Assembly: GCF_001625215.2 (NCBI RefSeq)
Contig: NC_030387.2
Span: 32,015,606-32,079,605, forward strand
Length of the DNA: 64,000 nucleotides
Source: Daucus carota subsp. sativus
Taxonomy: Eukaryota > Streptophyta > Magnoliopsida > Apiales > Apiaceae
Reading direction: 5' to 3'
Shown: piece after piece, positions 16,035 through 57,578 of the stretch
Layout of the letters: each line of letters begins with the position of its first letter
How positions within the stretch are numbered: the stretch's first letter is position 1
The notes under the pieces: model-generated
Databases searched by the model: none
What the model was told of the DNA's origin: nothing
The model's input: the letters and a program-made list of their open reading frames with translations, nothing else
Made by a program: the position numbers and the translations under genes

Positions 16035-16576
16035 GACATTTTCATGGCCGTCGGGAACCTTTATCTCCTGTAGACGCACACCGACAAATATTCCTAGATC
16101 TTATGGCCTCATAGATCTTATCGCCCCATAGATATTATCGCCTCATGAGTACAAGACTATACATCTTTAGTCTCTTCAACAATTGAAAAATCTACCCCCT
16201 CCCTAATATTTCATCTTTCTCTCACGATCCAGTAGTCTCACTCCGGCGTATTTAAGGTAAAGTGGTGTGTGTCCATGTATAATCGAGTAATTAGATTGAA
16301 CTAATAATATGCATATACACCGGTATCATAACACCCCCCACCCCCCAAATATATCCTCTTTCTCCCAAGATTCTGTTTTCTCCCTCGTAAATATCTAAAG
16401 GTAAAGTGGTGTGTGTCCATGTATAATCGGGTAATTAGTTTGAACTAATAATTAGTAAGTACTTGTATGTTTCTTGCAACTGATTCCAATTTTAGTTTCA
16501 AATTTATACAGAGTTTTCGTTTTTGATTTCTAATTGCAACAGATTTGGCTAAGATTTACTTTTGATATTTACAGTT
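16035..16576 (+). promoter_or_regulatory. BAH-PHD 5' flank and leader with 5'-UTR intron
   Basis: Upstream region of the BAH-PHD gene. A likely 5'-UTR intron runs from GTAAAG (16,401) to TTTACAG (16,574), three bases before the ATG; the donor and acceptor are also present in the copies at 47.8 and 61.5 kb. A 55-base direct repeat (about 16,256-16,310 and 16,400-16,454, TAAAGTGGTGTGTGTCCATG) places a second copy of the donor 144 bases upstream. That duplication is absent from the other copies. The left edge at 16,027-16,034 is a junction with the inverted spacer. Confidence 0.5.
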
Positions 16577-19249
16577 ATGAGGCGCACAAGAAAAGATGTA
16601 CAAGGTGTGAGGGATCCCAAGGGTAAGAAAAGAATCTCGTCATCACATGACTCCATCAACTCCCTTGCACCATCGAAGCTACGCAAACATAATAGTCCTC
16701 ATTATAATGGTAATAACTCTATGTATTTATGTAGTTTTAATTATGATTTTATTATTTGCGTTGCTCATGTTATGATATAATAAATGTATACAACTCAGGA
16801 GGCGGAGGGAGTATTAAATAAACGATGCCTGGGAGGCATCATTTGTTTAATACTCTCACCGTCCCTCTCAGTTGTATACATTGGTGGACGCGGCACGTAC
16901 TTTAATTCTTCTACAAGACTATAACGTATAGCTCTATAACTAATAAAAATTTTATATTTAATTTTTTATCCGGAAGAAGTAAATCTTAAAAAGAAATTAT
17001 AAAAAATAAACTTTACAGGAGTACTAAAGTATGTATAGAATTGAATGTGACAGAGGGAGTAACATTTACTTAATGGATGTAGTTCATTGTTTATTTTCCA
17101 TCAATTTTGTTTCTCCCTCATTGGTATTATCATCTATTTATTTCATAAGCTCTACCATATAACAGTCATATAATTGATGGTCATTTGAGGGATTGATTGT
17201 GGTTAAACCCAATTTTTCGTTAACTTTGTCTAATGTAAGTTTACTAGCTTTTATATTGTGTCTGTTCTAGTACTAGTCACCAAATATGGTCTTACCTAGA
17301 TAATTGGATTATCATCATCCCATCTCTAAAACAATGAAATCACACAAATAATAAATATCTCTACAACTTGGAGTTTAGAAATTATAACTTAAAAATATCT
17401 CTACAATTTTCAAACAAACCCTTTGAATCCCTGCTCAATCTCTTAGTGGAAGCTATCTACATTTCTCCCTCAAAAATACACAATATCTCTCTAAAAAACC
17501 TAATAAATATGTTATATCTCTTAAAAAAACTTAATAATTATGTTATATTTTATTATGAGCTTTTTATAGAAAGTCATTAGGAGGTAGTAAAGAGAACTAA
17601 AATAGAATAAAACTCTATATAACGCCCACCATCCTTCAATAACACTCATTCTCAAGATCCTTATTTCACATGAAGTGTTCCCTCAAGGAGATTGACTTTG
17701 AGGCTCAACCCTTGATGCTCACTTGTATGCTTGTCTGTCAGCGGATGTCCATTTACAAATTTTCTTCTCAACATATCTCTTTGCTATTTAGACAGATATG
17801 TTCTTCTATTTCATCTTTGTTCTTTCCACCTCCCTCATCTCACCGTATGGTACATGAATAAATCATTACAATTTACAATATTTTGATTAAACATGATGTG
17901 AACTATACACTTTTTAAACTTTAGATTTTCTTCAAAACAATCTTAATGGACTACATTAATATAAGTTCATCAAAAAGCATTACAAAAAAAACACATGACC
18001 CCTTAGTGAGTTACCACACATAGATGTTTAGGGGATGACAATCACACTTTCTTTTTTGTATGAGTTGTTGAATATGGTATTGTTTATTTCTCACATTGTC
18101 TATGCTTTTGATGTTCTGTAGATGGAGATTGTGTGCTTATGATGGCCCCTAATCCGGATGATCCACCATATGTTGCTCAGATTGTAGAATCCAAGGCTAA
18201 AAAGGTGACAGTAAGATGGTACTACAGACCCCAAGACACTGGCCTTTGGAAGAAAGACAGTCACGGTGACCTTTGGAAGAAAGACTGTCACGGGAAAAAA
18301 GAATTGTTTCTATCTAACCACTTTGATACTCAAAGTCTAGATTGTATCCTGGGAAAGTGTACCGTGCACACTTTCCATGAATATATGGAGCTTGAAGGTC
18401 GGCGTTCTGATTCTGATTACTACAGTCGATTTGAGTATGATGTTTATAAGAAAAAATTGATTGATGTCAAAGATGCTGATTGGTAAGCGATATGTGACTC
18501 CTAAAGTTACTTGTTATTTGTGTTTAGTTACAAAATTACTCCTTTCAAAGTGTCTAATTTGCCTATTCTTAAATCTTAATTGCAGGCTGTGCATTTGCGG
18601 GAATCCTTACAATCCAGATCTGTATGTCTATTGTCAGATATGCAAATCAAGGTACGGTATCCATTATAATAAAAAAATTGCACTTTTATGTATCAATGTA
18701 TGTGCTTTATTTTCATTTCCAGCATTTCAGAAAAAGAAATCTTGAGGTGCATACATGCAACTCTTTTATTTACTGCTGTTGAATGTTGAATAGATTCTAT
18801 ATTTTCATAAGAAGTGTGGTAAGGCCTCTTTATACTATAAGTTGATTAAGCTACTAAGAATTATCTCCTTAAACGTGCATGCCTTGTGATTTCAATTTTC
18901 ATAGAAGTTTTCGTGTTGCGTTGATTGTGCTTTTAATGTTCCTTCTAGGTTCCATCCATCTTGTACCAACACTGATGCAAAGAGTTCATGCATTATTTTT
19001 TGTGATAACTGCAAGAACTCTCCTAGCCAGGTTAGACTTGTTGGACTTGGCGCTTTTATACATCTTGTTCTATCTTTTTTATTTGACATTTCCCACTCTT
19101 TTTTGCTATGATTATTTACAACACATATAATAAACTCAATTTTTGATTTTTATAATACTTAGGAGCAAGCTGCGGACAAGCGCTTTGAAAGGTATCTCAA
19201 GTTTCCGAGGATGCACAAAGATATCAAAAAGGAGAAGGCCATTAGATAA
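16577..19249 (+). CDS. BAH-PHD chromatin reader, EBS/SHL family, five exons
   Basis: The spliced product is 242 aa; EBS and SHL of Arabidopsis are about 230. Exons: 16,577-16,709, 18,122-18,482, 18,586-18,651, 18,949-19,030 and 19,163-19,249, all GT-AG and in phase. Residues 46-164 are a BAH domain ([39 protein letters not shown]), which in EBS/SHL reads H3K27me3. Residues 165-208 are a PHD finger with ligands C167, C169, C181, C184, H189, C192, C205 and C208. Two oddities: a 27-bp tandem duplication (18,244-18,297) repeats LWKKD(S/C)HG inside the BAH domain, and the conserved Trp before F-H-P-x-C, part of the methyl-lysine pocket, is Arg187. The C-terminus is basic (RMHKDIKKEK). It should be nuclear, and methyl-histone binding by the PHD may be impaired. 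The exon model is from consensus splice sites only. Confidence 0.85.
16784..17059. mobile_element. Stowaway-like MITE with a near-palindrome, in BAH-PHD intron 1
   Basis: The right end is GACAGAGGGAG followed by TA; the left end, after TA at 16,851, is CTCTCACCGTCCCTCTCAG. A further inverted terminus (TGTATACAACTCAGG...CGGAGGGAGTA) lies just left of it, so 16,784-16,882 forms a hairpin of about 99 bases centred on GATGCCTGGGAGGCATC. This may be one element inserted beside the end of another. The same arrangement is in the copies near 47.5 and 61.2 kb. Confidence 0.6.
17060..18121 (+). other. Remainder of BAH-PHD intron 1
   Basis: AT-rich intron sequence ending in TTCTGTAG at 18,121. Open frames at 17,368-17,580 and 17,670-17,861 have no family signature and are not consistently kept; I treat them as chance. 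Confidence 0.6.
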
Positions 19250-19631
19250 TTAAAGATTAAGGAGTATTTCAAATTTTTGTTTGTCTTGTGGAGAATTGTT
19301 GGTTTGTTGTTCCACCCCTTTTATTTATTGTGACATAATAGGTTTCTTCTATTATTTTAAAATTTAAATTTTACTTTTTCACCTAGCAATCATATTATTC
19401 TAATTATGTGTAATTTGTTTTACATGTATACAGTTTGGATTTTGGAAAATATAGTTACTTGATTAAATGCATGTTTGAAAATTAAATTCAAATATCACCC
19501 AATTTCACATTGCTTTTACGTACCAAATTAGGTTGGGGTCTGGTGGGTATGGTCACATATATATTGGCCATAGACGAAATACCATATAGATTTGTGAAAT
19601 ATTGTTTTGGAGAAGTTTGTTTGTTTTTTTA
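19250..19631. other. BAH-PHD 3' flank
   Basis: Downstream sequence common to all BAH-PHD copies, separating the gene from the LINE fragment. No gene is seen. Confidence 0.5.
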
Positions 19632-20213
19632 ATAAACGCACTTGCATTAATACTTCTCACAATCAATCGTAAAAATGATGAAATCTGGAGCAGTATAGAA
19701 CCTGACATAGAATATGCAACTCGTGCTAATTCATGAGCTACGTATTCGCAGACCTAAAGATAAAAGTAACTAACCCTTCATCAAAGTGTTTAAGAATATC
19801 CCTACAATTTTCGACCATTGCATGAAAGTAGGTGTTTCCCCGACCGCCATTTACAGCATCAACTAGCTAGGAGCTGGCATCACATTCAAACAGACACTTT
19901 CTACTCCTCCATTCTTTTGTCCAAGTTAAAGCTTTTGAGGCTCGTAACTTCTGCTTCTCTCGGCTGAAATCTCGCTCGCACGACAGTAACTTTGGCTAAA
20001 AGAAAGTTACCTTCTTCATCCCTAATAACACATTCAACTCATACCTGGTCTGTCCCCTGCACAAAAGTTGCACCTACGTTTATTTTAACCCAGACTTCAG
20101 GTGGTTTACACCATGTTCGAAATCGAACCACAATGTGCTGTAGAGTTATCTTCCCTTGCTTGCTGCCATTCAGTAAACATACAGCTCGTGAACGCAATCA
20201 AAAGGTGATTTAG
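19632..20213 (-). mobile_element. LINE 3' fragment with RNase H domain, decayed
   Basis: The minus-strand copy of the fragment at 8,411-9,157, tail to tail with the BAH-PHD gene. It reads through the NVDAAF, VIRDEEGN and HELARVAYS motifs with stops and frame changes. It lacks about 200 bases present at the 5' side of the first copy. The plus-strand frame at 19,992-20,213 is antisense to it and not a gene. Confidence 0.75.
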
Positions 20214-21430
20214 AAAATTTATACTCTGATCAAATTATTTTTACTTACATTTCACTAAAAAAAATTTAAAATAAAATACCAAATATAACCTTTTAATAAA
20301 ATTTAGATGAGAATTTTATGGATCCTAAATCATATTTTACAACCTTCGTATGAAATATTTTGCTAAGTAATTAAAATACAAGATATGTAATTTATGTTTT
20401 TCTGTAATTTTTTTGGATGATGTGTTATTTTATTTTGTAAGTACTGATTTTATACACACACACACATATGAAAACTATTTTCTATGTAAGGTATAAGTTA
20501 TACTCAACAAAAATTTCCAACACTAATATAGGAAAAATAGGAGATAGTAAGTGGGTGTTTGGCAACACTTATTATTTTAAGTCCTTTCCGGCTTCTTTTA
20601 GCGCTTTTAGGTAGTGTTTGGCAAAAGAAGTATAAGTGCTTTTTTTGGGGGTTTTAAGCCAAAAGGTAGAATTCAGATATGCTAACTTTTTTGGCCTTTT
20701 TTAGTGATTTGCATTTTATTATGAAATTTTTAATTTTTTAATATGTAATAAACTTTATTTAGTAATAAAGTTATTTTATTTTAATAATTTGAATTTTTTT
20801 TAATTTTAAATTTAAATTACCAAATACTCAATTGACTTATAGGTGAAAGTTAATTTACATCATAATAATTGTCTTTGCAGTTTTCTTAATCACAAGAGTT
20901 TCAAAAGTGAATATAATAATATAATAAGAGTTGCAAGGATCATTTTATTGCATCGCATCTGATTTTTATATTGTTAAACTTATTTTTGTTGCAAGAAAAT
21001 TATTTAGACTAAATTATACAATCAAATATATGTATAATTTGTAGTGTGATGTGATATTAATTTTCATTCATGTTAATCACATCTGACAAAATATTAAATA
21101 AATTAACTCGTCCAACTGGCCAAACTCGCGAATTGAACACGGTTTAATTGTCGATAATTTGTTTCGGCTCGGCTCGTTTCGTCAACCTGACATATCTACT
21201 TATGAGATGAGGTCAGAAGTTAGAACATCATGTCCAGCAAGATTCTAACGTGGTGTGAGTCCTGTGATCTTACATAGTGTAACAGGGAGATGAGGGAGTT
21301 GCAGTTACAAATTAAATAAAACAGGCCAAGCAGAGGATAATTAGGCAACTAATTTACATACCAGATTGAATTTTGTAGTTTTTCAGATGAAGCCTAACAT
21401 GTAACCACACAATTAAACATATTAATAGAG
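20214..21430. other. AT-rich flank, dispersed repeat and nsLTP upstream remnant
   Basis: This holds a CA/TA-rich stretch (about 20,450-20,468) that is the empty site of the 1.9-kb TIR-element nest, then the GGGTGTTTGGCAACACTTAT repeat block (20,551 on), then sequence matching the nsLTP upstream region. The proximal promoter with the TATA box is missing because of the deletion described for the next gene. Confidence 0.5.
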
Positions 21431-21744
21431 ATGCAAGCATCAAATTGTTGCAACTCTTTAAAAGCATTCCGTGATACGGCCAAGACTAGAGAAGAGAGGA
21501 TTGAGTTGTGTCGTTGCGTGCAGGATCGTTCTAATAGAAACAGAGCTGGTGTTCCTGCTCCAGATGCTCGTGTTCCTAAAATAGACGCTCTTCCTGCAAA
21601 ATGCGGACTTCCATTTATATACTCTGCAGATCGTAAATTCGACTGTAACACGTAAGTTTATTTCACGGATTGTTGATAATTTTTTTGATTAGTTCATTAG
21701 TACACATGACTGACTAATATATTTTTCTATGCAGCGTAAACTAA
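21431..21744 (+). pseudogene. nsLTP copy without promoter or signal peptide
   Basis: Compared with 10,540-11,003, a 344-bp deletion joins upstream sequence to exon 1 at a shared TGTT. It removes the TATA box, the start, the signal peptide and Cys1-Cys2. An upstream ATG happens to fall in frame (MQASNCCNSLKAF), leaving a possible 76-aa leaderless product with six of the eight cysteines. Exon 1 ends at 21,651, the intron is 21,652-21,734 and exon 2 is 21,735-21,744, both splice sites kept. Without a leader or the full disulfide set it should not work as an nsLTP. Confidence 0.88.
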
Positions 21745-23253
21745 GCTTACCTCCGGTGCATGAAGAAGTAGTTGGAGGAAAAATCGATATATATAATAAC
21801 ACTGAGGCCATATATGTGCCTTAAGAAATAAATTTATGAGCAAATGTATCTCATATGTTTTGTAATTTTTCAGTTCAACAAGAAATGCAACTCCTGTTTT
21901 GCATCCACCGTAACTCATTGAGTTCTGTAATGTATTTCTGGCGTGCTATATTATAAACGTTTGACGTTTCTTATTAATTCTAACGTAACTGTTAATGCCA
22001 AAAGATAAAAGAACGTCGTCTACTGATCAATGACTGTCACTTAGTACTACAAGTCTGGAACTGTCACAAATCACAGGGAAAGGCCTCTGTTTATGACAGT
22101 TTAGTATTGTTGTATACCGAAAGCAGCATTCCCAGCGGCAGATATGCATACTTCTTGTAAGCTAATAGAAATACATTTAAACAGCAATGGAAACACGACG
22201 ACTCCAGTCATAAGCTATACTCAAGACATCAGGTAACAAGATCTCGGTTTTTCTCTGATCAACCGGCATCCCAGTCCCTATTTCTGGATATGAGTGTCAT
22301 AAGGGCAACCACGACTGACCTCATGCTTGGCCTTAGTACATGATTTCCGGAGATCTGTGCTGGGGTCGGGCTGATTCATTACCTCTTTAAACTGTAAAAA
22401 ATATACAGATAAATATATACTTATAATTACAATGTGCTCATTATGGCTGAGTGTTGCTGGGTTCCACTGAAGCTTAAGAGTTTGCAAATGACATGGAGAA
22501 ACACAGAGTAGAGCCTGATTTAGGTACTTATAAAATTTTAGTCAAAGTCTTACGACATCTCGGCATGATGAGTGGTGCAGGGGAGATAGAGAAAAGAACT
22601 ATAGAGCGAGGTTCAGCATTGCATACAACATTCTGATATGTGGGCTTTTCTAGGTAGACGGTGCTGATAAAGGTCTAAACACACGTAAAGGTCTAAAGAA
22701 TTGATAAAGAAATTACAACATCTGTAATCCAAGAGTTCTTTATATGCTATGAAGTGCGAGTTATACAAAAAACAAATAGAACGGATCAAGAAATTTAAAG
22801 CAACATTAGCAAGTTAAGCTGCCAAAGGATTACGAGGATGATTCTGTTATACTACAAGCTAATATTAATATGAAGTCTATTAGAAAATATTGAATTAGAC
22901 GTTCAACACTATTGACAGATTTCCAGAATATAATCAGTCAAACAAATAGACAACTCTCTCTTGTTTTTCACAAACAACTCCATAACCACAATTCAATACA
23001 GTGATTTGAATTCAAAGGTCAAACAGAAAAAGAGTGAGTGAGAAATTATAAACGATAAGATAACTTGGAAAAAACGATAGCAAAGAATGTTGAACATGAT
23101 ACAAAAATATGGACTTCTCACAGATTTATTGTAATATTTCTTTTATATTGCCATTATCAACCACGCCATATGCAAAATAGTAAATATAATCGTTATGGAC
23201 TCCAGAATATAATCATTAATTAGTAGATGTAGATTTGTAAGACTGACAATTCC
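21745..23253. other. Convergent intergenic region, third copy
   Basis: Nearly identical to 11,004-12,515, including the loss of the 15-base splice-donor block. No gene is seen. Confidence 0.5.
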
Positions 23254-24523
23254 TCACTTTGCATATTTCAACAGTGATTTGCCTCCCTCGTACATGATTA
23301 GACTCTGTGGAAACGAGGTGTCTACAGTAGATGGAGCAAGGACTTCACGGGAAACATCTGGACCCCCGTGCTTACCATATCCATGATATTTAGAAATCCT
23401 GCTCTTAAAATTAATAGAGACTATGTGCGTTTCATCAGGACGCTGCGATTGGAATGACTCTACTATAAGAGTTCCAGTCTTTGTAATATTCAAAGGATGC
23501 CCATATTGTTTGAGCACAGCTGTAGCAAGTAGAACCCAAGAGCCTACACCTTTTCGTTGCCTCCTCAACCATATAGGAAAAGGATACTTGGGAGGCACTA
23601 GATTGTAGCAATCTGGGTCCAAAGTACAAAGAGCGAGTGAACCTTCAAAACTCATGAGCTTAAACGGGGCAATAACTCCAAATAGACGGGGAACACGATT
23701 TGGCACATTAAATTCCCCAAACAACTGCGTATCAAAATCATGACATTATCTTCAACTCATTCCCCTTCAAACTATTAAACTCCTCAGTTCCAGGTTGTTT
23801 CATCTCTACCCAGTAGTACCTACCATCAACATAAGCCCCCATTTCATTAACAAGCCTCGGAACCCGAGAATCCCCCATCTTCTTCCACGTGTTCTTCCTC
23901 AAACTATAAACCTCAACCTTCGGAGCCACCTCTCCAAACTGCTTCCCCTTTCCATCCTGAACGTAAACAATCCTAATAACCTTATAATCATCCGTACCCT
24001 TATCATACCCCATCCCGACAACATAATAACTCTTCTCCCTATCATCCAAAAGCCTCTTAAAACAACTCGAAACAAGAACCCTATGTCTCCTAACAAAAGG
24101 GTTCCACAAATACAACTCCCTAGCAGCATAATCTATATGCAAATCAGTTAACAAAAGCATTCCATCTACTTGCGCAATTAGCTTCAAACTGCCACTCTTG
24201 GTAACAAAGGGAATGTCGAATTTTTCGATAACTCGAGAAGTATCAGCAGAGATTAAAGAGCAGTAATTTTGGTGAGAGATAAAAGGGGGGATTATAAGCA
24301 CAGCATTATCATCACAAAAGTTAACAGCTTTCCGAATTTGAGAGGAAATAAAAGATGGGTTGTTGATAAGAGAGTACCATGCTTTGTTCACTGAGCTTGA
24401 TTTGATTAGGTCTTTTACAGAGAGTCTTGAGAAGATTTCAGCGGTGGTTTCTTCAGGGAGATCATGAAACGTCGTCGTTGAGACTCCATTGTTGCTTACT
24501 GGGGCTACTGCAGCAATTGACAT
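23254..24523 (-). pseudogene. F-box/FBA gene copy with a 2-bp frameshift
   Basis: Full length and colinear with the intact gene at 12,516-13,787, with the start MSIAAVAPV and a complete F-box. A two-base loss at about 23,740 (AATCATGACATT where the intact copy has AATCATATGACATT) shifts the frame after NELKIMS, near residue 260. The remaining 156 codons continue in another frame. The product would keep the F-box and half of the FBA region. As it is one small indel in a repeat-rich assembly, a consensus error is possible. Confidence 0.85.
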
Positions 24524-27500
24524 TTTGATTGCAAGGAGAAATTGTGTAGGGTTTTAGAAACAATGAAACTGGATTATTGTGAAGAGCTTTTTGTAGTGAC
24601 TTTAAAATCAACGTAAAGAAAAGCCTGCAAACACATGGAAAGTGTACGTAAAAGTGAAGAGCTTTTTGCAGTAAAGAAAAAAGTAACTACCACAAAAATG
24701 TCAAGCCGTAAAACGGATAATTTTGATATTAATTTGTATGTACGTTGATTCGGATCTGAAAATTCATATCTGTATCCAGATACAAATACTATCCGGATCT
24801 GAATCTGATTTTAAATAGATTTTTATTTTTATATTAAAAAATTTTGAAAATTATAAAAAATAGCAAAGATCAAAAAATGATGTTAAAAATTAAAGTTAAT
24901 AAAGATGATTTATATCTATTCAAAAATTAATTTTTACTTATATTTCGATATAAATTTGTTATCTTTAAAATATTTAACTCAAAAAATATTTTGATATATG
25001 TCTATAATATCTTACAATTATATAAAATTTATATAAATATATTATTTTATGAATTTATATATAAATACACACATTATAATAAACACACTATAAAGTTATA
25101 GAATATTAAAATAGAGTTAAATATCATATACTCCCTCCGTTTCAATTTACACGTCCATCTTGAAAAAAAAATTTGTTTCAAATTAGTTGTCCACTTCAAC
25201 TTTCAATGCAAAATCATATTTCCAAAGTCAATTCTACTCCACATATCTCTTGTTTATATTTCCTAGATCAATCTCATTCCACATATTATAGTAATTTAAT
25301 GCATCTAATTTGTCAAGATCCACTTTTCTTAAACTGTGTGATTTTTTTAAAGTGGACATTTATTTTGAAACGGAGGGAGTATATTTCATTTCGGATTCGG
25401 ATATTATCGAATACAAATATGCCTATATCCGTATCCGGAATTGTCGGATTCGGATGCGGTTAATATCTGGTAGGTGACTGTATACGTCCAAAAAATTCAA
25501 ATAGGTCACTCAACTCAAACTAATCATCAATCAACGGCTTTCGAATTGAACGAATGATTAAATTAAGTTGATTTATTTGAGTTTTTTGGACGTAGTCCGT
25601 TAAATTTTCAATGAGTGATGTGCTTCAGTTTTTTGGACACAGTTTATCACATAGTTGATATTCAACCCTATAAAAATTCATATAAACATGTGCAGTGCAA
25701 CATGTCTTCCTTACAAAATTATTAATGTTTTATGTAAAACAGTCGGCAAACCATATATGTAGCGACTAGATCATTTTTTTTTATCATTCATCTATGTCCA
25801 AACTATTCAAAAAAGTTATTCGACTCTGATATTCTGATAACCATTAATACTGTAATCAAAGAATATGTGTAATGGATACACATCAAAAGAAACAAAACTA
25901 CCACAATATTATCGATATACTAACATGCAAATACATGCCCAAAGTCATACATTTCACAAAGATTAAAAGAAAATCATTATAAGAACTGACTGCAGCAGTG
26001 TGACTAGTGTCCGCCTGGAGATCTCTTTTCGAACATAATTGAGGACACACTGATCAGTGGTTTGTAGGTGATATTACTATATATCACCCTCAGTGCCATA
26101 TGCAAGTCATTGTATCACCCCTTGTTCCAGATCAAGACCCGATAAACATTACTATGAAGTACTTTTGCCAATCAAAAAAGAATAATTAAGAGGTTAAATC
26201 CAATACGACACATCAAATTAGTTACTCAGGAATATTAGGATATTCCATCTGAAATTTCTCAAGTAACTGATGTAATGTGATTTCTTGTCTGAACCTCTTC
26301 ATTTCTTTTTGAAGATTTGTTACGGTACTTACAATAGTGTTACCGGACTCTTGATCTGGAACAAAGGATGATATACAATGATATTTACCCATGCATGAAA
26401 TCTACCTACCCTGTCCATCTCTTTTGGAATTTGTAAGATACAATCCGCTTCGGCGAAATTGCATAGTAAAGAGCACCATAACACGCATACATATGATTAA
26501 ATACAAGGGCATAAGAAAAATCTAGTGAATTGGGAGGAAGTGTTTGGGGTTGTCTAGAGCTCATGCGATTTTTGATATATATAATACTAGCACATACACA
26601 CAATGATGTCATATAAGAAGAGTCGAGTGAATCGGTCGCTAAAGAAGTGTCTAGAATTAGGGAAAAGGAAGTGTCCTAGAGCTTTTGAGATTTTTGATAT
26701 AAATTAAATACAGTACTAGCACATATAAAGAATGATGTCATCACATGAGAAGAGTTGAGTGAATCGGCCTCACAAAATATCTAGAATTTTATGGAGAAAG
26801 AAGCTTCTGGAGCTCTTGAGATTTTTGATATAAATACTGTACTAGCACATACATACAACAAAATGATGTCACATAAGAAGAGAGTCGAGTGAATCGGGCC
26901 CTAAAGAAGTGTCTAGAAATCTCCAATTTTGCATATAAAAACAATGATGCGCACACATAACAATATCATATAGGTAAGGACTAAAACCTCTAGCGAAATG
27001 CAATTTTTTTTATAAGGAAATGAAAGAGCAATGCGAAAAGAACGTGCTAGGGACATTAAACGAGAATCCAAATTTTAAAATGTCCAAAAGAGGTATAAGT
27101 ATGTAAATTATGAAACGCTTTTGCTAAAATTAAATACAATAAGAATATGTTTCATTATGGCGCTAGATTCATAAATTATCACCCAAACTATAAAAAAGAA
27201 AATAATTTTCCAGAAAGAAGAACAATCCTAATGAGATTTCATATTCACCTGCAGTGACTAATTATATATTTAGAATTCGTGTAAACTCAAAAACTAATCC
27301 CAACATAACCTGATGTACAACATATGATTATTATGATTTAGATTTTCTAGTGGCAAAGCTAATTCTTCATTACAAACAAAATAATAGGATTTACTTGGAA
27401 ATGGGAATAGTGATATAATGTGCACCCAATCAAACATTGACAATTATATACATATTTGATTTGAATTTGTCGTCGTCTCCATATTAGCAAATTTATAAGA

Positions 27501-27541
27501 GTAAACTTCTGGTTGTTTATTAAAAAGAAATGAAATGTCCT
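24524..27541. other. Inverted unit spacer, third copy
   Basis: The mirror copy of 1-2,925, including the TIR element (about 25,460-25,670), the 56-codon frame (26,222-26,392, minus) and the tandem repeat (about 26,520-26,910). Clean sequence stops at about 27,541, within the first 180 bases of the unit, where normal bases give way to G runs. Confidence 0.6.
25131..25379. mobile_element. Stowaway MITE, inverted copy
   Basis: The same element as at 2,332-2,581 in the opposite orientation: CTCCCTCCGTTTCAATTT at the left and its inverse at the right, with TA on both sides (25,129-25,130 and 25,380-25,381). Confidence 0.9.
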
Positions 27542-27551
27542 ATGCTTCCTC

Positions 27552-30030
<2,479 letters not shown>

Positions 30031-33000: not shown

Positions 33001-33343
33001 ATAGAAAATAAAAATATATTTAAAACAGATCAGAACGGAATAGTAGTTGTTATCTGGATACAGATAGGAAGGTTCAGATCCGAAAATGGGCAACGTAACA
33101 TACAAATTAAATATCAAATTTAATCCGTTTACGGCTTGACATTGTTGTGTGGTAGGTGTACTAAAAGAGTTTTGTCTTTAATGCAAAAAAGCGCGTTCCT
33201 TTTATATACTCACTTTCCATGTGTTTTCAGGCCTTTTTTCTTTACGTTGATTTTTGTAAAGTCACTAACAAAAAGCTCTTCACAATAATCCAGTTTCAGT
33301 GTTTTCTAAAACCCTACAACATTTGCTACCCGTTGCAATCAAA

Positions 33344-34662
33344 ATGTCCAATGGGCTGCAGTGCCCCAGTAAGCAAAACAATGGAGTCGCAACGACGACG
33401 TTAATCAAATTAACGCATCTGAAGAAACCAACGCTGAAATCTTCTCAAGACCTCTTAAAAGACTAATCAAATCAAGCTCAGTGAAACAAGCATGGTACTC
33501 TTCGTAGCAACAACCCATCTTTTTATTTCCCTCTCAAATTCGGAAAAGCTGTGAACTTTGTGATGAGAATGCTTTTGTGGGCCTGTAGAATCCCCCCCCT
33601 TTTATCTCTCACCAAAAAAAGTACTGCGCTTAATCGTCTGCCTGAGACTTCGTCGATTTAGCGAAAAATTCGACATTCCCGTTGTGTACAAGAGTGCAGT
33701 TTGAGCAATTGGCCGCAAGTAGATGGAATCTTTTTTGTTAACTGATTTGGCATATTAGAATTAATGCTGGCTAGGGAGGTTTGTATTTGGTGGAAACCCT
33801 TTTGTTAGGAGACATGGTTTCGTTTGTTCGAGTTGTTGTTAAGAGGCTTTTTGGATGATAGGGAAGAAGAGATTTTTAGTGGGTCGGATGGGGTTAATGA
33901 GAAGGGGGACACGGATGCATTCATAAGGTTTTATTTAGGATTGGGTTTAACGTCAGGATGGAAGGGGACGCAGTTTTGGAAGAGGTGGCCTCCGAAGGTT
34001 TAGGTTTGATAGTTTGAGGAAGAACACGTGGAAAAGATGGGGATTCTCGGGTTCCCGAGGCGTGTTTAATGAATGGGGGCTTATGTTTGAGATGGTAGGT
34101 AACTACTTTGGGGGGTAGTATATGGAAACAACCTGAACCTGAGGAGGGTTGTTAATAGTTTTAAATTGGAGAGGGGAAGAAGTTTTTGAAGAATCGGTCA
34201 ATGAACAATTGTTGAATAGCAGTTGTTTGGGGGAATTTAAATGTGCCAAATGTGTTTCCCCGTCTAGTTGAGTTATTGCCCCGTGTAAGCTTCAATGAGT
34301 TGTTGAAGGTGGCAACAATAAAACAGCTCTTTGTACTTTTGGACCCAGAGGGCGATCCAATCTTAGTGGCCTCCCAAGTATCACATTTATCACTAAATAT
34401 GGGGAGGAAGGCAACGGGAAGGGGTAAGGCGTCGGTGTGTGGTTCTAACCTGCTACAGCTTTTGGCGCAAACATATGGGCATCCTAATGAAATAAAAAAA
34501 AAAAAAAAAAAAATAAATACAACAACGACTAAGTAAACTCTGAATAGTACAGTATAACATTCCAATCGCACGTCCCTGAATGAACAGCACATAGTCCTAT
34601 TAATTTTTAAAGAGCAGGATTTCTAAATATCATGGATGGGTAAGACGGGGTCCAGAAAATAT

Positions 34663-34720
<58 letters not shown>

Positions 34721-34858
34721 CGTGAAGTCCTTGCTCCATCTACGTAGACACCTCGATTTCCCACAGAGTCTAAATCCATGAAAAAAAAAATGGCGGGCTA
34801 AGATAAGGGCAAATCAACTGTTAGAAGGGGGGGGAAATGAGGTGGGGGGCGGAAGTGA
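33344..34858 (+). pseudogene. F-box gene image in the error-rich block
   Basis: ATGTCCAATGGGCTGCAGT at 33,344 corresponds to the F-box start, and matches continue to the end of the gene, with many insertions and deletions and a 40-base A run at about 34,665-34,718. No frame survives beyond short pieces. It is probably the noisy image of the gene at 23,254-24,523, so it should not be counted as a gene copy. Confidence 0.6.
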
Positions 34859-36991
34859 GGTACAGACATAAAAAGTTGATCATGTCCGTACAAAATCTAC
34901 AATCTTACTAATTGAGATGGATTGATATCTGGGAGTCCCAGTAACGATTAATTTTAACTAAGAATTTATGCATTGGCGTGTGGTTTTATAGATGAAGCCA
35001 ATATAAAAAAAGAATAATACAATAAAAAGGTCTGTGAGAAGTCCATATTTTTGTGAAAATAATCATGAATTCAACATTCTTTTGCCGATCGTTTTTAGTC
35101 CCAAGTTTATCTTATCGGTTAGTAATTTCATCACTGCGCTCTTGTGTAAAAATCTAAAAAAATAATTGAACAACATTTGAATGGTGTGCGTGGGTGAGTC
35201 GAGCGTGTGGTGTGAGGTGTGAATGAGGATTAATGGAGTAGTGTTATAGTTAAAAACAAGAGAGAGTTGTCTATTTGGTGACTGAGGATAATATACATGA
35301 AACACATAAACAATAAAACAAATAGGTGGGAAACGTCGGGAAGGTGGGGTCAATGAATTTGGTGGCGTGTAGATAGAGCCTTACAAAATAAGTAAGATTA
35401 GCTTTGTAGTATAACAAATCATCTCTAATCCTTTGGCATTGGAGGCGGAAAAATATGCGAATATAAAAAAATAAAAAAAATAAAATAAAAGAAAAGCTTT
35501 AAATTAATCATTGAAAACATCAAAAACGATTCTATATGTTGTTAAAAAGTTTGAAGTTTGTATAACCAGACACTTCATAGCAGATAAAGAACGTCTTGGT
35601 TACAGATTTTGTAAAGTTCTTTAGCAATTCTTTAGACCTTTACGTGTGTTAAGACCTTTATCAGCACCGGCTACCTAGAAAAAGCCCACAATCAAAATGA
35701 TTGTATGCAATTGCTGAAAACGGCTCTATAGTTCTAATTTCGGGGGGGGGGGGGGGGGCTATCGTCCCCTGCAACCACTCATCATGCCGCGCGAGAATCA
35801 GGGGGGTGTCATAAAAAAAAATAAGACGTTGACTAAAATTGTTTATAAGTACCTAATCGAGTCAGCGAACTGCACTGTTGTTTCTCCAGTCAATTTCAAA
35901 CCACTCGTAGCTTCAGTGGGAACCCAGCAACACTCAGCACCATAATGACAACATGGTGGAAGTAAGAAGTTATAATAGATATTATCCTGTATATTTTTAT
36001 ATTATACAGTTTTAAAGAGGTATGATCAGCCCGACCCCAGCACAGATCTCCGGAAATCATGTAACTAATGCCCAAGCATGAAGGTCAGTTCCAACGTTGG
36101 GTTTGCCCTATGACACTCATATCCAGAAATAGGGAAACTGGGATGCCGGTTTTGATCAGAGGAAAAAACCGAGAAGTCTGTTACCTGATGTGCTGTGTTA
36201 GGGTGTTATAGCGTTTATGACTGAGGCCTCGGTTTACCATTGCCGGTTGTTTAAAATGTAGTCCTATTAGCCTTACAAGAAGTATGCATATCGTGCCGAT
36301 GGGAATGATGCTTTCGGTAAGATAACAACAATAACTAAACCTTCAATAGAACAGAGGCCTTATAAAACAAAAACTAAGATTAAATTAAAAATATATGACA
36401 AAAGTAATACCAGACGGTGATGTAACTAAGGTGAACAGTCAGTTGATAAAGTAGACCAACGTTCGTTATAAATCTAAGATTTGGCATTAACAGTGTACTT
36501 AGAATTATAAGACAACGGCAAACGGTTGATAGGGTAGGGGGCACGCCAGAATACAAAATAAATAACGAAGAACAGAAACTCAAATGATTTAGCCGGTGGA
36601 AAATGAAAAAAAACACAAACAAAAACAGGAGTTGGCGCATTGCTTGTTGAACTGAAAAATGCAAAACAGTAAGATACATATGTGCTCATAAATAATAATT
36701 AAGATTTCTTAAGGGGCAAGGCGATGAGGGTGAGGTGGGCCGCAGTGGTGTATTATATAGATCGATAATAAGGTGTATCACAATACCCAACGGTGACTGT
36801 GGGCGGATTCCAATAGAAGCGGCCGGGAGAGGGTACAGGCTTTAGGTATGGTGTACATACGGCATAAGAAAAAGAAAAAAAAAAAAAAAATAGTCAATCA
36901 TTGTACTAATGAAACCTAATCAAAAAACAAGCTATCAACAATCCGAAAATAAACTTAAAAAAAAGTACAAATATGAAAAAAAAAAAAAAAA

Positions 36992-37342
36992 TAACGTCGA
37001 AATTTAACGATTCCAGCAGAGTATATAATGGAAGTCCCGCATTTTTTGCGTAGTCGCGGGTGGGGCTGGGTGGGGGGTGTAGTAAAAGAGAAATACACCC
37101 AACAAAGAAAAAAGAGGTCCATCTGGGAGCAAGAAGAACAAAAGAAAAGAAAGAAGACCAGCGGCGGTGCAAATAATAAATAAAAAATAAAAAAGGGTAA
37201 TACAAAAGAGTAGGGGAGGGGGTGTGGGAAGAACGACATGCCTGCACGACAAAGAACCAGGACGACAATCCCTCCAACTGGTCTCTAGAAAAAATACTGG
37301 GGGTGTCCGGATCAACGGAATGCTTTATAAACGGAGTTGCGG
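36992..37342 (-). pseudogene. nsLTP image in the error-rich block
   Basis: Recognisable pieces are CCAGCAGAGTATATAATGGA near 37,013 and ACGGAATGCTTTATAAACGG near 37,316, with scrambled sequence between. It is followed at once by sequence from upstream of the nsLTP promoter, as in the deleted copy at 21,431-21,744. Confidence 0.5.
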
Positions 37343-39079
37343 AGGTCAGCAATAATAAAAAATAATAACAAAAAAAAGAAAAAAATAAAATAACAAAAAG
37401 GTTGCGAGCTCTATTGATTATGGTTTAATGTAAAAAAAAAGAATGTGGGTACATGGGGCGAGGCATCATCTGCCAAACAACAAACTACAAAACACAACTT
37501 CAAATTGCTGGTATGTAAGATAAAAAAAATAAATAATAAAAAATGCAAAAACAAATCAAAACTAAAAAAAAACATCCCTCAAAAACATAATAAAAAAAGA
37601 AAAGAGCCGGGCTGTGTTAAGTTACGTGGGGGGGTGTGACGTCCACAAATAACACCTCATCTCACCATAGTGCCACTATGTAAGAGCACAGTACTCACAC
37701 CACGTTAAGAAAGCGTGCATGACCCTGAAATGTAAAAAAGAAATACAACTAGACTTGGGGGGAACTAGCCCTCATCGCTAAGTAGAGTAGTGTAAGGGTT
37801 AAATAGGACACGAAAACGACCGAGCCGAACAACAAATAATAAAATCGAAAAACAAAAGATTAAACAAGTGTTCAATGGTCGCGAGTTTTGGCCAGTTTGA
37901 CGAGGTAATAATTTAGTTAAATATTTTGTCAATGTGATTAACATGAAAATGAAAAATTACATAATCCCATACAACGAACAAATAATATAAATACATATAT
38001 TTGATTGTATAATGGTTTGAGTGCCCCTAAATAATTTTCTATCACAAAAATAAGTGGTTAAGCATATAAAAAAATCAATGCGATAGCCAATGAAAATGAT
38101 CCTTGCGGAACTCGTTATTATAAATTATTAGGGTGATTCACTTTATATTATACAACTCCTGTGATGTAAGAAAACTGCGAAGGAGACATTTTAATGAAAA
38201 TGTAAAATTAAAACTAAAAGTGGACCTAGTTAAGTCAATTGAGGAAAATAATTGGAATAATTAATATCAAACGTAAGTAAACAATGAAAACGGGTGTCAC
38301 GAATTATTAGCGCGACGATGCTCAGTAGATACGGTAAAAATATACACGGAAATAAAGGTAAAATTACAAATAAATCAACATATTAAAACAAAGCACAAAG
38401 TTTCATAAATAGAAAGAAAAAAATAACACACCAATCACTAAAAAGACGCAAGGGAGAGTGTGTGTGATCGGACGTGGGTGCTGGAGGCTACCTTTTGGGG
38501 TGTGTGCACAGCGCGAGCGGGCGCGGCCGCGCGATGAGAGCCAGTGGTGGCGGCGTGGTGCGTGTGGTTGCCAAACACGGAGCAACAAATAAAGGGCGCT
38601 GAGAGTGTGGATCGGCGGGGAGAAGGACTTAAAATAGAAGGGGGGGGGTAAGGAAAGAAAAGAAGAGAGATAGGAGGAATGCAAACCCAAACTATAAAAA
38701 CTATCTCCTGGTTTCCTATAATTATTGTTGGAAATGTTTTTGTTGAGTATAACGTTAGAACCTTAACAATAGAAAATATGTTCATAGGTGGGTTGGGTGT
38801 GGTAAAAAGCAGTACGGTACAAAAGAAAATAACACACAAATACACAAAATACACACACACAACAAAATTACAGGAAACGATAAATGGTACAATATCTTAG
38901 AAAAATATTGTGGTAAGTTACGATGCAAAATATGTTCCATACGAAAGGTTTTGTAAAATAGTGAAATTAGGATCCATAAAATGGCAGCAATCTAAGATTT
39001 TTTATTAAGGTTATATGTGGGGTGATTTTATTTTTAATTTGTTGATTATGAAATGAAGTAAAATAATTTGATCAGAGTA

Positions 39080-39640
39080 TAATGTGGCTAAATCAACTTT
39101 TTGAAGTGGCGTTCACGAGGCTGGAAATGTTACTGAATGGCAGCAACAGAGGGAAGAGACTCTACAAAGCACATTGATGGTGTCCCCGATTTCGAAACAT
39201 GGTGGTAACCACATGAATCTGGGTTAAAATAAAACGTGGATCAGACTTTATGTGCAGGGGACAGACGCGAGGGGGGGGGGTTTAATGAGTGAATGTGTTA
39301 TTAGGGATGAAGAAGGTACGGTTTCTTTTAGCCAAAAGGTTACTGTCGGTGGAGCGAGAAAAATTTGTCCAAGCCGGAGAGAACAGAAGTTACGAGCCGC
39401 AAAAGCGTTAACTTGTGGACAAAAGAAGGGAAGGAGTAAAAGTGTCTGTCTTGAATGTGGATGCCAGCTCCTAGCTAGTTGAATGCTAGTAAATGGCGGT
39501 CGGGAAACACCTACTTTCAATGCAAAATGGCATCCAAAATTTGTAGGGATATTTTTCGGTAAAACCTTGATGAAGGGTTAGTTTTACTTGTGTTATCTTT
39601 AGAGGTCCTGCGAATACATGAGCGGCTCCCAAGTGAATTT
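39080..39640 (+). mobile_element. LINE fragment image in the error-rich block
   Basis: This matches the RNase H fragment at 19,632-20,213 in reverse complement (TGTTACTGAATGGCAGCAAC near 39,127, AATGGCGGTCGGGAAACACC near 39,493). The match breaks near 39,640 and resumes at about 40,379. Confidence 0.55.
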
Positions 39641-40378
39641 GTAGCAACGATTTTGCAGGCAGCAATAATTCTTGTTTTCCTATGGGCTATGTCAGGTATG
39701 TCTATAACTAAAACTAAAAAGTTCTGGGTTTCTATCTTTGTTCTAGATACTCATAATTTCTTGATACTCTAATAAGGTTCTAAAAAAACTAGAGGTTGTC
39801 TAGCTATTCTATCTGCTCTGTCAGGGGTGTCTGGTTTTTCCTATTCCTAAAATTTCTAATATCTGCTTTACTTAGGTTTTTCCTAAAATCTATAAATCTA
39901 CTCGTACTATACTAAACTAACTATACTGCTGGGTCCTGCGATAATACCTGCTTGTTACGTACTTTAGGCGTTACTTGCTTTCTTTTTCTGGTTGTTCTAA
40001 AGTCCAGGTGTGCTATACGGCTTACTCCTACTACTACTAACGCTTACTGCTTTCTAATACTAACTGCCTATACTGTGTCTAATACTGTAAACTAACTGCT
40101 TTACTGGCGTTACTAACCGATATGCGACGAGGAGTACTGCCAACTTTTGTGGGGGCAGGTGTTCGTGGGGTGTGCTTACTTATACGAGCTGCTGGATGGG
40201 TACGAAAGGTAAAAATACTGCTATGTGGCGGGGAAAGGATGGAGATTCGGGACATAAATACGATAACGGAAGGACTGAACAATATAACCTATACGGAAAC
40301 ACGTATACGGGTCGGTGAGAAGCGTAGAAAGGAAAGTACTACATACGAGGCTAAGTACAATACGATACTGAGCCAGAT
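39641..40378. other. Low-complexity C/T/A insert inside the LINE image
   Basis: About 0.7 kb of CTAACT/TACTGC-like sequence where other copies have about 90 bases of LINE sequence. It matches nothing else in the window and has no coding signal. It resembles base-calling noise of the same kind as the G block, in a different base mix. Confidence 0.55.
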
Positions 40379-40839
40379 GTCAATCAGTTTTACGATTGAG
40401 ATTGTGAGAAGTATTAATGCAATGCGTTTTATTAAAAAAAAACAACAAACTTCTCCAAAACAATATTTCCACAAATCTATATGGTATTTATCCGTCTATG
40501 GCCAATAAATAGTGGGTGGGGGACCGGGAATACCCACCAGACCCCAACCTAAGTTTTGGTACGTAAAGCAATGTGAAAATGTGGGGGTGAAATATTTTGA
40601 ATGTTTTAAGGGAAATTTTCCCAAACATGCTTTATCAAGTAACTAGTATTTTCCAAAATCCAAACTGTATACATGTAAACAAAATTACAATAATTAGAAT
40701 AAAAGTGATTGCTGGTGAAAAAGTAAATTTAAAGTTTAAAATAAAAAGAAACCTATTATGTCACAATAAATAAAAGGGGTGGAAACAACAAACCAACAAT
40801 TCTCCACAGACAAACAAAAATTTGAAATACTCCTTAGGC

Positions 40840-43800
40840 CTTTATATCTTAATGAAGCCTTCTCCTTTTTTGATATCTTGTGCATCCTCGAAACTTGAGA
40901 TCCTTTCAAAGCGCTTTGTCGCAGAGCTTGCCTCCTAAGTATTATAAAAATCAAAAAATTGAGTTTTATTATATGTGTGGTAAATAGCAGAGCAAAAAGA
41001 GTGGGAAGTTGGTCAAAGAAAAAAGTAGAACAGAAATGTATAAAAGCCCGCCAAGTCCAACAAGTAACCTGCTAGGAGAGTTTCGTGCGGATGTATCAGG
41101 CGAGGAAGAGGAATGAAGGTTGCCATGAACTCCTTTTGCAATCAGTGTGGTAACAAGATGGGAGAACCTAGAAGGAACATTAAAAGCACATCACGCAACA
41201 CGAAACTTCTATGAAATTGAAAGCAACAAAGGAAAATGCCGTGTTAAGGGAAATTCTTTAGTACCCTTAAAATCAACTTAGAGTATAAAGAGCCTTACCA
41301 CACTGGGGGTGCTTGAGGTGGGAATATAGAAGCTAGTCAACATTGCAACAGGGCAGTAAAATAAAAGAGTTTTGCAGTTATGCACCTCAGATTTTCTTTT
41401 TCTGAAAATGCGGGAAAGCTGTGGGCTAGATCGTGTATAAAAAATACTAGCTAGGTTCATAAAGCGAGACTCTCCTCTCGTCAAGACAAATGTGTTGGAA
41501 ATAGTAAAAAAAAAAAAGTGAGGTGTGGGTGTGTGGTGCATATCACACAATACACAACAATATAATACAGGCGTTGGGGGTCGGGGTGGTAGGGGGGGCA
41601 ATAAAAGACATACAGATCCTGGGATTGTAGGATTTCCCGCAAAGGTACACCTGCAAGAAGAATTTGAAGAATAGGCAAATTAGACACTTGGGTTGAACGG
41701 AGTAATTTTGTTAACGAAACACAATAACAAGTAACTTTAGGAGTCACAATATTCGACTTACCAATCAGCATCTTTTGACCATCAATCCATTTTTTTTTTC
41801 TATAAACATCAATACTCAAATCGACGGTAGTATCAGAATCAGAACGCCGACCGTCAAGCGCATATAAATTCATGGAAAGTTGGGGGACGGGACCGTTCCC
41901 GGAGACAATCTAGACTTTTGAGTAACAAAAAGTGGTTAATAGAAACAATATCCTGTTTTCCCGTGACAGTCTTTCTTCCAAGGTTCACCGGGACTGTCTG
42001 TCTTCCAAAGGCCAGAATTCTATGGGGCTGTAGTAACAGCGTACTGTCCACCTTTTTTTTTAGCCTGGATTGCCTACAAGCTGAGCAACATAATGGTGGA
42101 TCATCCGGAATTAGGGGCCCATCATAAGCAACACAATCCCAACATAGGTGCTAACAACAAGACACGAAATCAAAACGACGAGTAGAGAAGCGAACATAAG
42201 TGTGTGAGTTGACAAAAATAAACAATACCATAGTCAAGCTAAACGAACTCATACAAAAAAAAGAAAGTGTGATTGTCTCCCCCGAAACACTATGTGTGGT
42301 AACTCACTAAGGGTCAAATGTTTTTTTAAAATTGTAAGTGGCGATTTTTGGAATGAACTTATATGTAATGTATCCAATTAAGATTGTTTTTTTGAGAAAA
42401 TGCGTGAAAGTTTAAAAAGGGGATAGTTCACATCATGTTTAATCAAAATATTGTAAATTGGTGTAAGTGATTTTAGTCATGTAAATACGGGAGATGGAGG
42501 GAGGAATGGAAAGAAGCAAAAGATGAAATAGAGAGAACAGTATCTGTCTAAATCTCAAGAGAATATGTTGAGAATAAAATTAATAGGAGAAATATTCAAA
42601 GGTGGACAGCGCGCTGAGGCAGACAGGCCAAAGTAAAAACGCGCGAGTGAGCATCAAGGGTTGAGCCTCAAAGTCAATCTCCTTGGGGAACACTGCAGTG
42701 TTGAAATAAGGAAATCTTGAAATGAGTGGTTATTGAAGGATGGTGGGCGTTATAGAGATTTGTATTCAGTTTAGTTTCTCTGTTACTACCTCCTAATGAC
42801 TTTTGCTAATAAGAAAGGGGCTCATAATAAATATAACATAATTATTAGTTTTTTTTTTAAAGAGAGTATAACATATTACACAGTTTGAATAGGTTTAGAG
42901 AGATTTGTGTATTTATTTGGAGGGAGAAATGTAGAGAGCGTCACTAAGAGATTGAGAGTGGAGGTCAAATTCCAAGGTTAATTGTTTTTTGAAAATTGGG
43001 TAGAGATATTTTTAAGTTATAATTTCTAAACTCCAATTTAGGAGAATATTGATGTATTTGTGAGTGAGATTTCAATTGTTTTTAGAGATGGGATGATGAT
43101 TAAATCCGGAATGATCTAGGTAAGACCATATTTTTGTGAATGGTGAAAGGGCTAGTAACTAGAACAGAGCACAAGTTAAAAGCTAGTAAACCTTACATTA
43201 GACAAGTTAACAAGAAAAAATTGGGTTTTTTTAACCAACAATCCATCCTCAAATGAACCATCATTATAATGAAACCGTTATAGTGGTAGAGCTGAATGAA
43301 AAAATATAAAAAATAGATGAGAATAACAAATGAGGAGAAACAAAAGTGGATGGAAAATAAAAAACAATGAACTCATCCATTAAGTAAAGTTTGGAGGGGC
43401 GTGGGGCCACTCTTCAATTCATCCTATACAGACTTTAGTAAAACTCCTGTAAAGTTTAATTTTTTTTATAATTCTTTTGTAAAGGTGAGTGTGAATTAAT
43501 TCTTCCGAAAAAAATAATGGAGGTAGGGAAGGGGGAATTTTTTATTAGTTATAGAAAGCATATAACGTAAGATCCCTTGTAGAAGAGGGTGAGTTAGTAT
43601 AGACGGAGGGACAGGGCGTACCACACCAATGTATCGAACTGAGAGGAGGAACGGTGAGGAGTATTAAACAAATGAAAAATCCTCCAGGCATCGTGTTTAA
43701 AATTTAAGGTACTCCCCTAGCCCTCCCTGAGTTGTATAGCATTTAAAAGTAGTAATCATAACAGTGAGCAACGACAAATAAATAAAAATCCAGAATGAAA

Positions 43801-44075
43801 AGCTAACATAAATACTGAGAAAGATTTAAAGATTACACATATAAGATGAAGGAACCTATGTATGATTTTGCGTAGCGGTCGATAAAATGTAAGGCAAAGG
43901 GGAGTTATGTGAGGTAGTCACCAACCGCATGGTGATGGGAAGAAAGATTCTATAAAGTCTATACACCGTGAGGAAGGAGTAGCAACCGTCAGCAACCAAA
44001 TATTGATTACGATCATTAAAATAGTCTGGGTGATACGCCGCTACAAATAACATGTGTTAAAAATATCAAAAGTAA
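40840..44075 (-). pseudogene. BAH-PHD gene image in the error-rich block
   Basis: All five exons can be followed in reverse complement (last exon near 40,860-40,930, BAH exon near 41,760-42,130), with many small errors and a scrambled first exon (43,860-44,060). It carries the private variants of the gene at 16,577-19,249 and is best read as an image of it. Confidence 0.55.
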
Positions 44076-44103
44076 TCTTTAGCCAAATCTGTTGGCAAGT
44101 TAG

Positions 44104-45140
44104 AAAACAAATTTTTTAAGTGAATTGTAAGTAAAAAATAATTTGATCAGAGTATAAATTTTCTAAATCACCTTATGGATTGCGTTGACGAGCGTGCTGT
44201 ATGTTTACGGAATGGCAGCGAGCAAGGAAAGATAACTCTGTATATAACACACAACAGCACATTGTGGTTCGATTTCGAACGTGCTGTAAACCACCTGAAG
44301 TCTGGGTTAAAATAAACGTAGATGCAGCTTTTGTGCAGGGGACAGACCAGGTATGAGTTGGATGTAATTAGGGATGAAGAAGGTAACTTTCTTTTAGCCA
44401 AAAGTATTGTCGTGCGAGCGTGATTTCAGCCGAGAGAAGCAGAAGTTATGAGCCTCAAAAGCTTTAACTTGGACGAAAGAATGGAGGAGTAGAAAGTGTC
44501 TGTTTGAATGTGATGCCAGCTCCTAGCTAGTCGATGCAGTAAATGGCGGTCGGGAAACACCTACTTTCATGCAACGATCGAAAATTGTAGGGATATGCTT
44601 AAACACTTTGATGAAGGGTTATTTACTTTTTATCTTTAGGTCTGCGAATACGTAACTTATGAATTAGCACGAGTCGCATATTCTATGTCAGGCTCTATAC
44701 TGCTCCAGATTTCATCATTTTTATGATTGATTCTGAGAAGTATAATGCAAGTGCGTTTATAAAAAAACAAACAAACTTCTCCAAAACAATATTTCACAAA
44801 TCTATATGGTATTTCGTCTATGACCAATATATATGTAACCATACCCACCAAACCCCAACCTAATTTGGTACGTAAAAGCAATGTGAGATTGGGTGATATT
44901 GAATTTAATTTTCAAACATGCATTTAATCAAGTAACTATATTTGTCAAAATCCAAACTGTATGCATGTAAAACAAATTACAAATAATTAGAATAATATGA
45001 TTGTTAGATTAAAAAATAAAATTTAAATTTTAAAATAATAGAAGAAACCTATTATGTCACAATAAATAAAAGGGGCGGAACAACAAACCAACAATTCTCC
45101 ACAAGACAAACAAAAATTTGAAATACTCCTTAATCTTTAA
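44104..45140 (+). mobile_element. LINE 3' fragment and BAH-PHD 3' flank
   Basis: Clean sequence resumes at about 44,104, directly after BAH-PHD leader sequence, an order seen nowhere else. The RNase H fragment spans about 44,164-44,761 (ATGCAGCTTTTGTGCAGGGG near 44,320), decayed as in the other copies and without the 22-base A run. The rest is the usual flank between LINE and BAH-PHD. Confidence 0.65.
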
Positions 45141-47806: not shown

Positions 47807-48739
47807 AGCTGTAAAATATCAAAAGTAAATTTTAGCCAGATCTGTTGCAATTAGAAATCAAAGACGAAAACTCTGTATAAATTCGAAAACTAAATTGGAA
47901 TCAATTGCAAGAAACATACGAGTACTTACTAATTATTAGTTCAAACTAATTACCCGATTATACATGAACACACACCACTTTACCTTTAGATATTTACGAC
48001 GGAGAAAACAGAATTTTGGGAGAAAGATGATATATTTGGGAGGTGGGGGATGTCTAATCCAATATTTCTAGTAGTGGCTTTACCTTAAGTACGCCGGAGT
48101 GAGACTACTGGATCGTGAGAGAAACATGAAATATTAGGGACGGGGTAGATTTTTCAATTGTTGAAAAGACTAAAAATGTATAGTCTTGTACTCATGAGGC
48201 GATAATATCTATGGGGCGATAAGATCTATGAGGCGATAAGATCTAGGAATATTTGTCGGTGTGCATCTATAGGAGATAAAGGTTCCCGATGGTCATGGAA
48301 ATGTATGTGTGCGTCTACACGAGATGTAGATGCATCTGTGTTTGTGGGAGCAATATGAAGTGTCCAAGAATCTGTAAAAGAAAATTTTATTCATCTTTTC
48401 ATTCACTTTTAACTCATGTGGTTAGTTTGAATTGACAAAAGTACACAAATTGAGCAAAATTTAATTAAATAGAATTATAAATGTAGAATATTTATTTAGT
48501 TATAATATTACAAAGGCATGAACTCTCAAAATGCACATATACAAAATGCACTTTTTCTTTAATTTATAACTACATGCAAACTCCAATCTCTTTGTTACAC
48601 TATATGGCTCTGTTTGGAAGTCAGAGATTTTGGGCAAAATTAGAGGTTTGAGGTGTTTTAGAGGTTTGACAACTAGAACCGCTAATATTAGTGCTTGGTA
48701 GTTATAAGCAGATTGTAATAAAGGTTTTTTTTACAAAAA

Positions 48740-57520: not shown

Positions 57521-57578
<58 letters not shown>

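Follow-up and report, generated by a model that had tools for sequence, protein, structure and literature searches.

An uncorrected fold-back long read as the probable source of a noisy mirror image in a carrot gene array

Positions 27,542-44,103 (~16.6 kb) of the analysed carrot DNA (the window, a stretch of 64,000 nucleotides taken at its full length) very probably represent one uncorrected fold-back long read and not real DNA; we put the probability at about 0.93. This interpretation had been proposed in a first-pass annotation of the window and holds on the sequence: the segment is a mirror image of the clean array unit to its left (left arm, L), shares variants which are private to L, carries errors at the density of a raw read and ends at edges which are not natural. 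If the segment is an artefact, the ~16.6 kb and any gene models inside are spurious, and the array is overcounted here in both copy number and orientation. The surrounding array of F-box, LTP and BAH genes, including its inverted copies, appears to be genuine.

Array units and mirror geometry

The array was delimited by self-BLAST of the window. Its unit is ~13.65 kb long, so that position 44,109 recurs at 57,759, and it contains genes for an F-box protein, an LTP-like protein and a BAH-domain protein according to Pfam matches of five translated pieces. The F-box protein encoded at 53,320-54,669 is 99% identical to a protein of Daucus carota subsp. sativus; the next named match is from celery (70%). 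Clean copies are mostly 94-98% identical to one another in self-BLAST, with some shorter stretches at 89-94%; for instance, 44,109-49,090 and 57,759-62,705 share 96.9% identity. Over the columns of L, identity between L and the other copies is 94.1-99.2%. The segments are as follows:

16515..27541, plus strand: left arm L, a clean partial array unit serving as template for the mirror
27542..29049, no strand: turn, G-dominated noise of ~1.5 kb in which neither the mirror nor the continuation of other copies past 27,541 was detected
29050..30020, minus strand: start of the right arm with many extra G calls, corresponding to L 27,538 to ~27,171 (G-removed alignment)
30021..39664, minus strand: main part of the noisy right arm, L ~27,170 to ~19,715 (self-BLAST and global alignment)
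39665..40372, no strand: block of ~0.7 kb within the right arm for which no counterpart was found in L or elsewhere in the window
40373..44103, minus strand: end of the noisy right arm, L ~19,688 to ~16,515 (self-BLAST and global alignment)
44104..44109, no strand: false join to the next clean sequence; register jump from L 16,515 to L 20,267 with orientation unchanged
44109..57541, minus strand: clean array unit after the artefact, orientation opposite to L (self-BLAST), starting mid-unit at 44,109

Further differences between the units were observed. The F-box gene of L (23,254-24,553 in the ORF list) is interrupted near 23,739 by a frame break, which is an L-private deletion of 2 bp common to the right arm; the F-box frames at 12,516-13,868 and 53,320-54,672 are open over 450 codons from stop to stop. 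An insertion of ~1.9 kb at 6,115-8,060 (L-equivalent 20,454-20,466) is missing from the L copy. It includes an inverted repeat at 6,115-7,551, which is almost spacer-free and has 86% identity between its arms, AT microsatellites and a second element-like stretch (~7,600-8,055), and perhaps consists of foldback or MITE-type elements. Another possible MITE is a short imperfect self-inverted repeat (79%) at 49,550-49,773, with a related copy at 63,036-63,257. The clean copy at 53-57 kb apparently lacks ~330 bp at 56,897-56,908, beside the LTP gene, judged from BLAST coordinates. This piece is carried by the copy at 9,983-10,313 and by L; the gap would be another variant of unit length. The copy at 57,600-62,700 shows 74 gap openings against 44,109-49,090, of which 54 are missing bases, and another 66 in comparison with L, compared with 3-26 in 11 other clean comparisons; its consensus is probably thin or badly polished.

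The right arm is the colinear reverse of L in self-BLAST as well as in a global alignment to reverse-complemented L. In self-BLAST, 30,021-44,103 matches L with 78-88% identity in exactly reversed order. When the global alignment was divided into 500-bp bins of the right arm, the L coordinates fell monotonically from 27,191 to 16,525, which bears out the mirror order described in the first-pass annotation. That annotation had placed the mirror at 30,030-44,103. The end stands (~44,103, equivalent to L 16,515); the start had to be moved to ~29,050, equivalent to L 27,538.

The start was determined by alignment of the tip of L with the turn. A plain global alignment scored 396.7, compared with a maximum of 323.2 for 60 shuffles and 407.8 for the best of 60 window pieces, and the local score of 37 stood against 34 for the top-scoring of 100 shuffles. 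A second plain alignment with G kept was equalled in score by 51 of 620 window pieces. Since the plain alignments failed to convince, G was removed from both sequences and the controls were treated identically. Then, the last 350 bp of L scored 341 against 28,900-30,000, with a maximum of 235 for 907 other window pieces. The G-removed match extends from 29,050 (L 27,538) down to L 26,970, and 472 of its 481 aligned non-G letters are identical. Thus, G calls have been added on top of well-kept non-G letters at 29,050-30,296, and 29,050-30,000 resembles junk because these extra calls swamp the mirror there. In terms of L, the arms start ~3 bases apart (L 27,538 versus the stop of L at 27,541) and no loop sequence was detected between them. 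The right arm (29,050-44,103) is ~1.37 times as long as its template.

Private variants and errors of the right arm

A site was considered L-private when the L base occurred in no other aligned copy, at least two other copies were present and all of these agreed, which gave 104 sites; one copy was excluded from the count beyond L 21,081, where its identity is 79.6% and it is misplaced. The right arm has the L base at 95 of these sites and the base of the other copies at 2; 3 sites are deleted and 4 carry a third base. By chance, the base of the others is expected at ~1.9 sites, given that the right arm shows 543 substitutions and 270 deletions over the 10,165 positions at which the aligned copies are unanimous. 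A further 298 sites distinguish L from one or more of the copies; here, the right arm follows L in 283 cases and another copy in 5; 5 are deleted and 5 show a third base.

Length variants give the same picture. The L-private 344-bp deletion in the LTP gene is present in the right arm with confirmed breakpoints, and the missing piece scored 167 against the right arm, with up to 169 for its 15 shuffled copies; the shared nsLTP deletion had been correctly recognised in the first-pass annotation. The other L-private deletions of at least 2 bp, one of which comprises 17 bp, are also found in the right arm (4 of 4). For exon 2 of the BAH-PHD gene, diagnostic short sequences had been suggested. GACTGTCT and AAAGGCCAG are limited to L and the right arm (positions 41,992 and 42,007 in the latter), and the form AAAGATCAG is confined to the copies at 46,142 and 59,788, all in agreement with the suggestion. 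It needs a restriction for GACAGTCT, which has a second occurrence nearby in L and in the right arm and is, therefore, diagnostic at its aligned site only. As judged from these variants, the right arm is derived from L itself and not from another copy of the array.

In the aligned core, the right arm and reverse-complemented L have 9,825 matches, 564 substitutions, 3,720 inserted bases and 278 deleted bases, and the raw-read error density assumed earlier is thereby confirmed. Insertions exceed deletions 13-fold; ~675 of the inserted bases fall in the block 39,665-40,372. The 1,399 gap openings of the right arm (1,153 insertions and 246 deletions) compare with 3-26 in each of the clean-copy comparisons (n = 13), except for the two with 57.6-62.7 kb (66 and 74). 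Transitions and transversions number 119 and 445, whereas the clean-copy ratios range from 0.76 to 2.33 (13 comparisons). Inserted bases are rich in purines (A 1,420, G 1,304, T 605, C 391). The differences from L look like read errors, not like evolutionary divergence.

Raw PacBio reads are reported to contain ~8% insertions, 3% deletions and 1-2% substitutions with elevated transversions, and ONT reads ~4% errors of each type with prominent transitions (PMC7671305). The excess of insertions and transversions in the right arm favours a PacBio raw read with a missed or absent adapter over nanopore. Per 10.7 kb of L, the right arm holds 3,720 inserted bases (~3,050 if the 0.7-kb block is left out), an insertion load several times as high as the average published for PacBio.

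Turn, edges and orientation

At 27,541, L drops into noise. A G-only block had been described at the turn; a G block is indeed present, but 27,542-30,020 consists of 69.8% G and 2.8% C and is not pure G. A search of the noise block for the unit sequence with which other copies continue past 27,541 gave scores of at most 184.5, versus a null maximum of 191.5, and hence no match. The published SMRTbell adapter scored 14.5 at the turn, compared with a maximum of 15.5 for 40 shuffles, and the noise could hide an adapter. In the literature listed for a poly-G query, nothing on G-rich blocks in PacBio reads was evident. The channel for G is the dimmest in PacBio sequencing, and no argument is built on this.

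The noise of the right arm proceeds in phases, with G in excess near the turn, A in excess at 34.5-38 kb and a block devoid of homology at 39,665-40,372. In the first part of this block (39,665-40,100), 78% of C are followed by T; the neighbour bias then shifts. A real insert found no support, the block being without match anywhere in the window, and neither did a rereading of L, for which scores of 149.5 and 158.0 stayed under those of 10 shuffled copies (158.5-168). We read the block as a second noise burst, perhaps caused by a distinct signal fault.

Neither edge of the segment is a natural unit boundary, since clean copies cross both 27,541 and 44,109. Beyond the equivalent of 27,541, other copies go on with unit sequence (e.g., 167 down to 1). 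A natural boundary at 44,103/44,109 was rejected because the copy 57,572-61,680 runs unbroken through the same register. Due to the register jump at this join, ~3.8 kb are doubled in tandem, the noisy version being followed by the clean one. Towards its right tip, L has more indels: gap openings against two copies number 8 and 7 in the last bin and 0-4 in earlier bins, except for 7 at 26,791. This rise would fit a thinning read cover near 27.5 kb.

An inverted junction of another kind was observed elsewhere in the window. The units 1-9,438 and 9,431-16,034 form a head-to-head inverted pair with clean sequence at the join. Their opposed copies 2,919-5,915 and 10,125-13,116 are 98% identical, and the join at ~9,431-9,438 is asymmetric (L-equivalents 19,333 and 20,545). 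In contrast to the turn at 27.5 kb, this junction has the appearance of a true inversion point. Given this junction and the orientation of the unit right of 44,109, opposite to L, a real orientation switch may sit in the gap which the artefact fills; this may be the reason why an assembler or gap filler took the read.

Explanations and comparison with known reads

The following course of events would account for the segment. We infer a single read, its platform, a missed adapter and an assembly step. A long read would have hit the end of its molecule near 27,541, lost clean signal for ~1.5 kb of calls and then returned along the opposite strand of that molecule as far as about L 16,515. It was likely a raw PacBio read whose hairpin adapter escaped recognition, leaving both passes in one subread. 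The forward pass would have been covered by other reads and yielded the clean consensus of L; the return pass, without a true genomic place, would never have been polished and kept its raw errors. Assembly or gap-filling would finally have attached the next contig to the read end at 44,103/44,109, out of register. A paper on gap closing lists missed adapters among the problems of real PacBio reads, alongside chimeras and low-quality regions (PMC8848313), and palindromic reads of this kind are described as able to damage assemblies (PMC6218980). The carrot DH1 v3 assembly was based on PacBio, ONT and Hi-C with a gap-filling phase, and two T2T carrot assemblies on PacBio HiFi and ultra-long ONT, though none of these is necessarily the assembly of the window (PMC10581907; PMC10541555, PMC12552772). 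Counted against the artefact were the undetected adapter, the high insertion load and the 0.7-kb block, which is explained only as noise, and further that the clean unit to the right is truly opposite to L, so that a real inversion point could lie in the gap.

If L had been duplicated as a true palindrome very recently, or its arms had been kept alike by gene conversion, the second arm would have been assembled from one unpolished crossing read; we consider this very improbable. The opposed clean copies near the left end of the window speak for it, as does the next clean unit on the right, which demands a switch from plus to minus if the orientation of the scaffold is correct, and real inverted duplications are reported to yield second arms of low quality in nanopore reads as well (PMC7229812). 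At the L-private sites, however, the right arm departs from L no more than its error rate accounts for, whereas a divergence from L of ~1-6% is seen in the other aligned copies. The arms meet ~3 bases apart, the turn holds only G-dominated noise, both edges lie mid-unit, and a real arm ought to have had other reads correcting it. The substitution spectrum (119 transitions, 445 transversions) is unlike ordinary mutation, although one bad read across a palindrome would show the same. The same small chance is given to the version in which the carrot-like F-box/LTP/BAH array repeatedly makes head-to-head copies, the near-perfect palindrome of L is too young to have gained mutations in its arms and a single bad read was all that reached the assembler. 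A palindromic chimera formed by whole-genome amplification before sequencing seems the least credible of all. Such palindromes are frequent after amplification (PMC6218980). By itself, this process leaves the 1.5-kb noise block and the restriction of the errors to one arm unexplained. Plant assemblies are, moreover, rarely built from amplified DNA.

A dispute about the platform only concerns a nanopore fold-back, with template followed by complement, which we regard as unlikely; its probability is not to be added to that of the fold-back reading as a whole. The anatomy would be the same, a degraded second arm has been described for inverted duplicates (PMC7229812), and ONT was used beside PacBio in the three carrot assemblies mentioned, which need not include that of the window (PMC10541555, PMC12552772, PMC10581907). 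In the nanopore account, faster translocation causes bases to be missed and leaves a low-quality region that is shorter than the first arm (PMC7229812). In the carrot segment, the length of the second arm is ~1.37 times that of L, deletions are rare (278 versus 3,720 inserted bases), and the errors are mainly transversions and calls added over kept sequence. An uncorrected PacBio read folded back on L thus remains the preferred reading.

A fold-back read is a known kind of error, and the case is most likely of practical, not of biological, interest. Shared private variants could wrongly suggest a young palindrome. An artefact may be tested for without reads by private variants, error spectrum and register of the edges, and the dominant noise base should be stripped before a turn is aligned.

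Three comparisons place the segment among known structures. The clean inverted junction at 9,431-9,438 resembles the turn at 27.5 kb in that two opposed unit copies lie head to head, but it is clean, its arms have diverged by ~2% or more, its join is asymmetric and it is without noise block. Nanopore reads of inverted duplicates share the clean first arm and a bad complementary arm from the turn on; their second region is described as shorter, with missed bases, while that of the carrot case is insertion-rich and longer (PMC7229812). Palindromic reads from missed or missing SMRTbell adapters are treated in the context of Pacasus, and reads classed as palindromic accounted for 0.5% of an unamplified PacBio data set, with false positives in this figure (PMC6218980). 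Apart from ~1.5 kb of G-dominated noise at the turn, the lack of a recognisable adapter and a second arm noisier than the published average, the carrot case is like these reads, in which a forward strand is followed by its complement within one read and the arms are identical save for errors (PMC6218980).
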